NCBI GenBank assembly: GCA_945893365.1
Contig: CAMDED010000020.1
Span: 1-64,000, forward strand
Length of the DNA stretch: 64,000 nt
From: Candidatus Sulfopaludibacter sp. SbA3
Lineage (GTDB): Bacteria; Acidobacteriota; Terriglobia; Bryobacterales; Bryobacteraceae
Direction of reading: 5' to 3'
How positions within the stretch are numbered: the stretch's first letter is position 1; each line of letters begins with the position of its first letter. Shown piece after piece: positions 32,706-35,621 of this stretch. The notes under the pieces are model-generated. The model saw only the letters and a list, made by a program, of their open reading frames with translations, did not search any database and had not been told where the DNA came from. The translations under genes and the position numbers were made by a program.

Positions 32706-33611
32706 TCAGATTGCGGAAAGCCTGGCTTTCGCCTCGCGGAGATAGCGTGGAAGATCTTCGGCCGCGCCGCCGAGCTCGAGCATCCACAGGCCCGCGTAGC
32801 CGCTTTTTCGAAGCGCGGCCGCGAGCCCCGGATAATCGACAAAGCCGTGCACGAGCGGTTTGTGTTCCTGCCACGTTTGCGGGTCGATGTCATGAACATG
32901 GAAGTGGAAAACCTTCGACCCGAGCCGCTCGACGATCGCCATAGTGGTGTCGTTGTACGCCCCGATGCCCGCGGGCGTGGCCCTGTCTTCGGGCTTGACG
33001 CGGGTGATAAGCTCTTCGTAGCGGCTTTGGTGGCCCACGTCGATTGTGGCGCCAACCGACTCGTGGGCGATCTCCCGGATCAGCCGGACGAAGCCTCGAA
33101 CCGACCTCGGATACCCAGTCTCGAGGGCAAGACGGAGTCCCAGGTTTCGCGCACGGTCCCCCCAGCCACGAAAGCGCTTCAGATACTCAGCCCACCGGGC
33201 TTCCAGTTCAGCGCCGGGGAGCGGTTGCGGATGGAGCACCGCCAGCGTTCCGCCGAAAAAGGCCGCTCCCTCCATCGCGATTTCCACCGTCTTCACGGCC
33301 TCGGCATCCGCCATGTAATTCAGACCTGTGTACGGCAAATGAGCCGTGACGCGTTCGAAGCCCGCGAGCGCGGATTTGATTTCGTCCCGCTGACGGGTGG
33401 TGAGGCGGTCGAACTGAAAGCCGGGGAACCGGCCCGCGCGCGGCTCGGGCTCGCCCATCGTATGAATCTCGATTGCCGGAAATCCGAGTTCGCGAATCTT
33501 GTTAACGGCCTGCAACAGGCCGTATCCATCGATGGCTGTATTCGCCCCAAGCATCCAGGGAGCGCGGCCGGCAGCGGCAAGGGGAAGCTGAAGCAGAGTG
33601 CGGCGGGTCAT
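32706..33611 (-). CDS. Sugar-phosphate isomerase/epimerase-like TIM-barrel protein, exported
   Basis: 301 aa. The N-terminus MTRRTLLQLPLAAAGRAPWM looks like a Tat-type signal. The AP-endonuclease-2/xylose-isomerase barrel shows 'ELGFPAIEIHTMGEP', 'RVTAHLPYTGLNYM', 'GLRLALETGYP' (metal-ligand Glu), 'VGATIDVGHQSRYEE' (Asp/His) and 'VFHFHVHDIDPQTW' (His, Asp). The C-terminal 'GYAGLWMLELGG' has the last Glu. The metal site therefore appears complete. The start codon overlaps the stop of the preceding CMD-like gene by 4 bp, placing it in the alcohol dehydrogenase operon. Substrate unknown. Confidence 0.83.
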   Translation of the reverse strand: MTRRTLLQLPLAAAGRAPWMLGANTAIDGYGLLQAVNKIRELGFPAIEIHTMGEPEPRAGRFPGFQFDRLTTRQRDEIKSALAGFERVTAHLPYTGLNYMADAEAVKTVEIAMEGAAFFGGTLAVLHPQPLPGAELEARWAEYLKRFRGWGDRARNLGLRLALETGYPRSVRGFVRLIREIAHESVGATIDVGHQSRYEELITRVKPEDRATPAGIGAYNDTTMAIVERLGSKVFHFHVHDIDPQTWQEHKPLVHGFVDYPGLAAALRKSGYAGLWMLELGGAAEDLPRYLREAKARLSAI

Positions 33612-34168
33612 GAGCGGTTTCTTCCTTCAATCGGGCAGACATAGAAATTCTCGCTCTCGATTCCCAGCGCGTGATCGAACCGCGCGCGATAGTTCTCGAG
33701 CGCGATCGCGGATGTGATCTCGACGATCTGGTTGCCGTTGAAGTATCTTTTCAATTCCGCGAACACTTCGTCCGTCACGCTCACCGGAGTGTCGCACACA
33801 CGATCCACGTAGACAAGCGCGGCCTTCTCGCGGGCGCTGAAAAACCCGCTAGAAGCGAACTCGGCGACGGCGGCGATTTCTTCGTCGGTAATCCCATTCT
33901 TTCTGCTCACGGCAGAGCCTGCATCGATTCAAAACAGACAGCCGATGCGCTGAGCCCCGCGCAAGTGCATCAGCGAATGGAGACGGCGGTCGACCAGGCC
34001 GGAGCTTTCGACCGCCGCGCCGGCAATATTGATGGTCCAGGCGATACCGGGCGTGCGCGCTTGAACCTTGACCGGACCCGGAACCCGGCCCAGCGCCTTT
34101 CGAACAATCCAGTAGAGCGGCCGCACCCACCACGCCGCGTCCCGCTCTTCAAGCCCCGTGATTCGCAA
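33608..34168 (-). CDS. Carboxymuconolactone-decarboxylase/AhpD-like protein with in-frame TGA, probable selenoprotein
   Basis: Read through one TGA (33931-33929) the gene encodes 186 aa from TTG 34168. Upstream of the TGA: 'ITGLEERDAAWWVRPLYWIV' and 'LHSLMHLRGAQRIGCLF'. Downstream, in the same frame: 'IDAGSAVSRKNGITDEEIAA', 'FFSAREKAALVYVDRV' and 'EITSAIALENYRARFDHALG'. Relatives have GC-x-F-C-x-D at this spot, so the TGA replaces the second Cys of CxxC, giving C77-L-F-U80. Both halves keep family similarity and no other defect is visible. The start overlaps the alcohol dehydrogenase end by 20 bp and the stop overlaps the isomerase by 4 bp. A thiol/selenol peroxidase or reductase role is inferred. 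If TGA is a true stop, this is instead a cleanly interrupted gene. Confidence 0.72.
33902..33916 (-). promoter_or_regulatory. Candidate bacterial SECIS stem-loop
   Basis: Starting 12 nt after the in-frame TGA, the minus strand reads TCTGC-CGTGA-GCAGA: a perfect 5-bp stem with a 5-nt loop. The loop begins 17 nt after the TGA and has G as its second base. Bacterial SECIS elements recognised by SelB need an apical loop about 16-37 nt from UGA with a G among the first two loop bases, so this fits. A short AATC/GATT pairing could extend the base. Confidence 0.6.
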
Positions 34169-35285
34169 CGCCGGCGCCTCCCGCGTCCGGTACCAACACC
34201 GCCTTGCCCGATTGCCACCGCCGCACGGTATCGAGCGCCTTATTCGCGTCCGCGAGCGCGAACTTGTGCGTCACCTCCGACGCGAACAGATCCTTGAGAT
34301 GCGTGCCCGCGAGGAGCGTGATCGCGCGGTCGACATGACGCGGCTCGAAACCCCAGGACCCGATCAGCTGCAGTTGTTTTCGAGTGATCGCATGCGGATT
34401 GAAACTGATGTTACCCGCATCGGCGTACTGCCCGAGCACGAGATAGCGCGCCCCGTCGCGGCAGAGGTCGATGCCTTCGGTGACGGCGTCGGGATGGCCC
34501 ACGCATTCGACGGCGTAGTCCGCGCCAAACGGCCCGGTTTCGTCGAGAACCGCGCGGCGGCGGTCCGCGGCGCTTGGAATGGCCGCGACGTCGATGGTTG
34601 CGTCCGCGCCGAAGTTCCGCGCGAGCTCGAGACGGTGTGGAGGGCCGCCGATGGCGATGACGCGCGCCGCGCCTGCATGCCTGGCGAGAGCGATGGCCGC
34701 AAGACCGACCGGCCCCGTACCCTGAACCACGACGATATCGCCCCACTCCACAGGGGCGCGCTCGAATCCGTGAATACCGGTTACCAGCGCGCATCCGGCG
34801 CCCACAACCGACTCGGACGGGAGGTCGTCCGGAATACGAAAGATCGCCGTTCCCGCGCGCAGCAGGATCCGTTCCGCGTAGCCGCCGCGCAGATGCGGGG
34901 CCTGATCGGCACAGTAGGAGATCCCGTAGGCCTTGCGCGAGACGCAGCGCGTGGGCTGCCTCTTCAGGCGGCAGTAATAGCACTCGCCGCAGACAATGGA
35001 ACTGGCCCAGGTAACGCGGTCGCCCAGCGAAAGCGGGTTGCCGCGCCAGTCCTTCTCGATCCCGGCTCCAAGGCGCTCAATCCGTCCGGCGGTCTCGTGG
35101 CCCATGATGACGGGCAGCGGGATGGCGAGCTGGCCGAGCCACAAGTGAACGTCGGTGCCGCAGATGCCCGCCATTTCCACGCGCACGAGAGCTTCACCCG
35201 CGCCCACTTCTTGGATGGCCGGATACTCGCGAATCTCGAGCGGCTGTTGAAACGCGGTGAGCACGGCGGCCTTCACGGTCGGCAT
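34149..35285 (-). CDS. Zinc-binding medium-chain alcohol dehydrogenase
   Basis: 378 aa from ATG 35285. The GroES-like domain has the catalytic zinc ligands 'MAGICGTDVHLW' (Cys) and 'MGHETAGRIERLGAG' (His, Glu). The structural-zinc-type cluster is C-GE-C-YY-C with a further Cys after RQPTR. The Rossmann domain contains 'VVVQGTGPVGLAAIALARH' (GxGPVG). It oxidises or reduces a polyol or alcohol with NAD(P); relatives are sorbitol- or threonine-dehydrogenase-like. It is first in an operon with the CMD-like selenoprotein candidate and a TIM-barrel isomerase. A TACAAT box 7 bp before the ATG could be a -10 of a nearly leaderless transcript. Confidence 0.88.
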   Translation of the reverse strand: MPTVKAAVLTAFQQPLEIREYPAIQEVGAGEALVRVEMAGICGTDVHLWLGQLAIPLPVIMGHETAGRIERLGAGIEKDWRGNPLSLGDRVTWASSIVCGECYYCRLKRQPTRCVSRKAYGISYCADQAPHLRGGYAERILLRAGTAIFRIPDDLPSESVVGAGCALVTGIHGFERAPVEWGDIVVVQGTGPVGLAAIALARHAGAARVIAIGGPPHRLELARNFGADATIDVAAIPSAADRRRAVLDETGPFGADYAVECVGHPDAVTEGIDLCRDGARYLVLGQYADAGNISFNPHAITRKQLQLIGSWGFEPRHVDRAITLLAGTHLKDLFASEVTHKFALADANKALDTVRRWQSGKAVLVPDAGGAGVANHGA

Positions 35286-35621
35286 CGCTTCATTGTACTG
35301 AAATGGAGTTGCGCGATCGTTTGTTCCGAAATCCGAAGTTGAAGCCAAGGACAGTGCGGACTGGGCGGATGGAAGCTGAAGGCACACGGATATTCGGCGG
35401 GCGGAAGGCTTGCGGTCGTTGCGGTCTCTATAGCCCGTTTGTGCGCTTCGCGCCAAACCGTGCTGACGGAAATGCGCCGTTCACGCGTTAAGCTCCCGAT
35501 AGTCCAGCTTCGCCGGCGAGATAGTGCATTGTTCCCTTCGGGCAGGCACGCGCCTTGCGCCCAGCCAAACATCCGGATTCATCGTGGGTGCGGACCTAAG
35601 CCGCTTGTGGGCCGCTCCCGA
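35286..35621. other. Intergenic region
   Basis: About 335 bp between the starts of the alcohol dehydrogenase operon and the 3' end of the UDP-glucose dehydrogenase gene, both minus strand. I see only the possible TACAAT box near 35292-35297. Frames here do not resemble any protein family. Confidence 0.4.

Follow-up and report, generated by a model that had tools for sequence, protein, structure and literature searches.

A predicted AhpD-like selenoprotein of the CMD superfamily with a CxxU motif in an acidobacterial genome

Selenoproteins of the carboxymuconolactone decarboxylase (CMD)/AhpD type with a CxxU motif were described in 2005 (PMC1088965), and proteins of this kind also appear in later tables (PMC2398784, PMC9312934, PMC13188914), as far as the relevant passages of these papers go. 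For Acidobacteria, a survey of 2006 gives three families and four selenoproteins in its passage on this group (PMC1794560). In AhpD, the five-residue proton relay is described as including a glutamate 12 residues before the first cysteine of the CxxC motif, Glu(-12), and a histidine 4 residues after the second one, His(+4) (PMC3141380, in part). With regard to the debrominase Bmp8, a passage of a review reports that cysteine oxidation to a disulfide has been proposed for its mechanism (PMC5577590).

The locus studied here lies in a stretch of 64,000 nucleotides from Candidatus Sulfopaludibacter sp. SbA3, which we refer to as the window; the genome measures 7.9 Mb in 299 contigs and is 96.65% complete. 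A first-pass annotation had proposed that a single in-frame TGA, located at the second Cys of a CxxC motif, interrupts an otherwise intact CMD/AhpD-like gene of a kind already reported as selenoproteins in bacteria, and the literature cited above agrees with the last point. The standard code cuts the gene into two frames (Table 1). The read-through product matches the Pfam CMD family PF02627 with 41.3 bits, above the gathering cut-off of 23. The terminal stop is a TGA (33610-33608), and the only internal stop is the TGA within the motif GC77-L-F-U80-I-D, so the frame is otherwise undamaged, as had been stated. The overlap of its start and stop with the neighbouring genes was likewise recovered.

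Table 1 Features of the putative selenoprotein locus (positions in the window)
Feature	Position	Strand	Remarks
AP_endonuc_2/sugar isomerase-like TIM barrel gene, downstream	32706..33611	minus	ATGA common to the stop of the selenoprotein gene
AhpD/CMD-like selenoprotein gene (predicted)	33608..34168	minus	TTG start to TGA stop, 186 residues, Sec at 80
Core of putative SECIS hairpin	33902..33916	minus	UCUGC / loop CGUGA / GCAGA; 5 bp, family form 7 bp
In-frame TGA, putative Sec codon 80 (C77-L-F-U80)	33929..33931	minus	Column has TGA in 20/24 matches, Cys in 4/24
Zinc-dependent alcohol dehydrogenase-like (ADH-like) gene, upstream	34149..35456	minus	20 nt overlap with the start of the selenoprotein gene
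Shine-Dalgarno-like GGAGG	34177..34181	minus	TTG start 8 nt downstream

A homologue search in 201 genomes, including the host genome itself (E<=1e-20), returned 24 matches in 18 genomes, the window gene and a paralogue from the same genome being counted. Exactly one TGA is present in 20 of these matches, the window gene included, and none in the other four. All 20 TGA codons fall in the same alignment column, in which the four remaining sequences exhibit a Cys (CxxC), as expected for the second Cys of the motif. This pattern is more than chance, because 20 of 24 matches carry exactly one TGA and always in that column. When 396 genomes of the phylum were searched with a profile, 140 of them gave matches (E<=1e-15). 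A wider set was then composed of 30 loci among the matches listed by this search, 60 more that were fetched and the loci of the earlier homologue searches; after removal of duplicates and of rows not covering the site, it comprised 59 Sec rows and 57 non-Sec rows. The non-Sec rows show Cys in the Sec column in 46 cases, the other 11 carrying Thr (7), Ser (2) or Glu (2, both from one protein). The Cys anticipated at position 80 of homologues is therefore found in all four TGA-free sequences among the closest 24 and in most of the wider set.

The genome had been expected to encode the selenocysteine machinery, and selA, selB, selC and selD are all present, the tRNA-Sec(UCA) and the three proteins scoring above curated cut-offs. 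The tRNA-Sec reaches 71.2 bits (cut-off 47), SelB 381 bits (cut-off 242.25), SelA 492.2 bits (cut-off 267.9) and SelD 369.7 bits (cut-off 125). Each of the three proteins has one match above its cut-off and the tRNA has two; as the second of these is a tRNA-Ser according to ARAGORN, the identity of the tRNA-Sec was decided by its anticodon (TCA, ARAGORN). The selA gene and the tRNA-Sec are located on the same contig (C101). A criterion of E<=0.001 is weak for this purpose: at that threshold the tRNA-Sec, selB and selD models match all 14 control genomes, with scores above the cut-off in 5, 2 and 2 of them, respectively, and the selA model matches 4 of the 14, one of them above the cut-off. The selD gene (L025, G000:C81:892-1815) itself appears to be a selenoprotein gene, with a single in-frame TGA at AG-U-ASK that precedes a strong hairpin. 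In a sample of 42 genomes, hand-picked from the results of the homologue search and the profile search, selB scored above the cut-off in 25 of the 27 genomes with the TGA form versus 4 of the 15 without a listed TGA form (Fisher 2e-5). The two TGA-form genomes without selB above the cut-off are G002 (73% complete) and G301 (95% complete). In the latter, the TGA form (L071, G301:C5:3442-3936) has a good hairpin, and either a missing contig or a loss of the machinery could account for this genome.

A hairpin with a G in its loop is present after the UGA at the level of the family, and that of the window gene is weak and non-significant on its own. The 20 closest Sec genes share a 7-bp stem at a fixed distance after the TGA, with 94.3% of 140 cells paired, versus 33.6-55.7% for stems slid along the same 20 rows. 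In a covariation test in which the stem was drawn from the same 20 sequences it was tested on, 13 cells had changed on both sides (shuffled mean 3.7), while the number of pairs changed on both sides (2, reached in 138/500 shuffles) and that of further pair types (5, reached in 205/500) were not above shuffles. In the wider set, the hairpin is stronger than synonymous re-codings (p<0.05) in 39/59 Sec rows versus 3/57 non-Sec rows, a contrast with a Fisher p of about 1e-12 when relatedness is ignored, and the loop of the best hairpin contains a G in 58/59 Sec rows. The codons used in the hairpin are also rare ones: among 29 Sec rows with Ser-Ala, Ala-Ala or Ala-Ser at positions +5/+6, Ser+5 is TCT in 17/19 (52/840 elsewhere in these frames) and Arg+9 is AGA in 15/17 (36/1129 elsewhere). 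With regard to the window gene, 5 of the 7 stem positions pair, the hairpin is not stronger than synonymous re-codings (p=0.457), and the isolated minimum free energy fold is a different 4-bp stem rather than the putative SECIS core. Its score is the third lowest of the 59 Sec rows; the two below it (L035 and L066) show no clear hairpin at this place.

This weakness could mean that Sec is inserted inefficiently, and bacteria normally show a degree of termination at Sec codons. Both points would fit a main product of 79 residues ending at the UGA, one form of an alternative in which this codon is not read as Sec; the other form is a reading as Trp or another residue. We consider this alternative very improbable, given the Sec machinery encoded in the genome and the selection acting on the second half of the gene, which is detailed below. 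Against a Trp reading stand the Cys found in all four non-TGA sequences of the closest 24, the absence of Trp from the 57 non-Sec rows, and the use of TGA as an ordinary stop, for example at the end of the selenoprotein gene itself.

Compared with the gene of a sister species (L030), which also carries the TGA, the window gene shows a dN of 0 and a dS of 0.83 before the TGA (65 codons), and a dN of 0.063 and a dS of 0.93 after it (106 codons), the latter corresponding to a dN/dS of about 0.07. Relative to this TGA-bearing species, both sides of the TGA are thus under purifying selection. A decaying gene, in which the TGA would be a nonsense mutation, could account for an internal stop and for the weak hairpin of the window gene. 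Nevertheless, the same TGA recurs across the matches, no second internal stop has accumulated, and the low dN/dS past the TGA leaves decay unsupported, so a pseudogene is highly unlikely, in keeping with the earlier opinion that decay explains the locus poorly. Least probable of all is a sequencing or assembly error for TGC or TGT, which a draft genome of 299 contigs might suggest, since the sister species (92% identity over 172 residues) and further genomes, all assembled separately, carry TGA at this codon too.

The reading that we retain, with a probability of about 95%, is that the gene encodes an AhpD-like selenoprotein of the CMD superfamily in which UGA 80 is read as Sec. The exchange of Cys for Sec suggested by the first-pass annotation is supported by the machinery, the TGA column, the selection on both halves and the family hairpin, from which we infer that Sec is actually inserted into the protein. 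SelB, with the Sec-tRNA(UCA), would decode UGA 80 under the guidance of a short hairpin, the loop of which starts about 18 nt downstream of this codon. Located where a helix begins, Cys77 and Sec80 would then form a C-x-x-U redox pair. One member could attack a substrate that is oxidised or electrophilic, a selenenyl-sulfide would close between the two residues, and this bond would be reopened by a reductant of the cell. A thiol/selenol redox function of the CxxU pair is likely. The substrate is most likely a peroxide or a disulfide, and a halogenated or other electrophilic compound is possible.

The residues corresponding to Glu(-12) and His(+4) of AhpD are Ser65 and Gly84 in the window protein. 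The window gene falls in a clade of 32 in a quick tree built on 115 rows, the support for this clade being only 86. The clade contains 27 Sec and 3 Cys sequences lacking both relay residues and 2 Sec sequences having both. Among all 59 Sec rows, both residues are retained in 28, one in 4 and neither in 27. Some relay-less rows exhibit a His or an Asp at position -12, and a His at this position may serve in another AhpD-like protein, according to a passage in PMC3141380. We considered a link between Sec and loss of the Glu/His relay across the whole superfamily and did not find support for it: 28/59 Sec rows keep both residues, and the loss belongs to one clade. A test on independent pairs gave p=1, but the supported branches supplied only 6 pairs, for which 0.05 is unreachable. 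Eight homologues (L074, L079, L081, L086, L096, L097, L101 and L123) exhibit a TxxC motif, with Thr for the first Cys, and keep both relay residues; seven of them group in one clade beside Sec forms in the quick tree.

The position of the hairpin also differs between these groups. In 24 of the 27 Sec rows without either relay residue, the best hairpin has a loop starting at +18 or +19. The start is +19 in the two Sec rows of the same clade that have both residues (L038 and L040), versus +21 in 29 of the remaining 30 Sec rows, the loop there being GGC or GTC. These two registers, at about +19 and +21, suggest that Sec may have been gained separately, because two loop positions are the pattern that separate origins would leave.

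The setting of the gene between an alcohol dehydrogenase and an isomerase had been put forward as an unusual operon. We compared seven window neighbours (BLASTP, E<=1e-10) with the open frames of 19 other neighbourhoods, some of them on short contigs: one in the sister genome, one around the paralogue of the host genome, and 17 spread over 16 further genomes. The isomerase part of the context held, this neighbour being kept in the sister genome with 85.6% identity, plus a second short match; no other tested neighbour is kept there, in a comparison whose sister contig begins inside the selenoprotein gene and thus places the ADH side outside it. At the paralogue locus, a distant ADH (27% identity) is present, and the 17 neighbourhoods of the 16 other genomes show no match to the seven neighbours. 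As a clue to function the operon is therefore weak: 17 of 19 neighbourhoods are without a match, and of the tested neighbours the sister genome retains the isomerase alone. Ten neighbours selected by a codon-bias rule in nine other genomes and at the paralogue locus belong to mixed Pfam families, one of them, at L162, to PF01261, the family of the window isomerase. None of the window neighbours examined was recognisable as halogen-related.

The paralogue of the same genome (L163 6030-6551, which is L050, G000:C23:19729-20250) is a second TGA-bearing, putatively Sec-encoding form, with a hairpin of 7 bp. It lies directly downstream of a gene for a two-domain bacterial microcompartment shell protein (BMC, L163:6564-7139), and a BMC shell gene with 94-95% identity adjoins the orthologue in both genomes of the same genus (L045 and L051).

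The AlphaFold2 model of the window protein, with Cys modelled for Sec, is all-helical (mean pLDDT 91.7) and places residue 80 in helix 78-90. By VIA-align, the fold of the model is AhpD-like, with Z scores of 21-22 to several AhpD-family structures. The top Foldseek match is the debrominase Bmp8 (6ohi and 6ohj), over the full length and with a TM of 0.82-0.83. As a closest relative, Bmp8 was nevertheless kept as a lead only, because VIA-align ties it with AhpD-family structures (Z of 21.4, versus 22.5 for 6k40) and phmmer places it level with PA0269 (48.9 versus 50.4 bits). Like the window protein, which has CxxU, Bmp8 has a CxxC pair and lacks Glu(-12) and His(+4), exhibiting W and F at these positions and a His at +3 in an alignment read by eye. 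In contrast, it contains Cys rather than Sec, and the identity is 21%. The link to a Bmp8-like reductive dehalogenation is a resemblance in predicted fold and active site only.

Deiodinases are Sec-dependent. A broader proposal is that the mostly relay-less, Sec-rich acidobacterial clade consists of Sec enzymes acting on carbon-halogen or other electrophilic substrates, similar to Bmp8 and deiodinases and distinct from AhpD-type peroxidases. In these enzymes, Sec would replace the base that activates the second Cys, and its acquisition would be independent of that in the relay-bearing Sec families (loop at about +19 versus +21). We regard this proposal as unlikely. A literature search combining CMD, selenoprotein and dehalogenation returned one unrelated paper and nothing relevant. 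In the text passages of the literature found, the acidobacterial clade, the relay loss and the two registers are not described.

With the window gene, an acidobacterial lineage gains a well-supported selenoprotein. The wider set, with its 59 Sec and 57 non-Sec rows, shows a repeated exchange of Sec and Cys within one superfamily, with two hairpin registers, and provides a usable case for studying the frequency of Sec gain and the ability of Sec to take the place of a base in the active site.

With regard to classified families, the best NCBIfam match is NF053654, 'YciW-related (seleno)protein' (109.9-110.1 bits, residues 2-175), and all 24 members of the alignment of homologues (A3) match this model at E<=0.001, the best at 3.5e-93. 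As the score of the window protein is far below the cut-off of 310 bits, its sequence places it as a diverged relative of NF053654 and not as a named member. A search of plasmid records returned 272 records, all under 60% identity. AhpD of Mycobacterium tuberculosis and PA0269 (2o4d) share with the window protein the helical fold, the CxxC helix and the redox pair, and the fold match is closer to 2o4d (Z of 20.1) than to M. tuberculosis AhpD (Z of 11.7-11.9). The predicted resemblance in fold might suggest an AhpD-type peroxidase or AhpC-reductase activity, but this chemistry is not simply transferable, because AhpD has the relay residues Glu(-12) and His(+4) where the window protein has Ser65 and Gly84. 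The known CMD/AhpD-like CxxU selenoproteins correspond to the window protein in both the PF02627 domain and the Sec at the second position of CxxU; this kind of selenoprotein is already known, and the window gene is a well-supported further member of it in an acidobacterial lineage.
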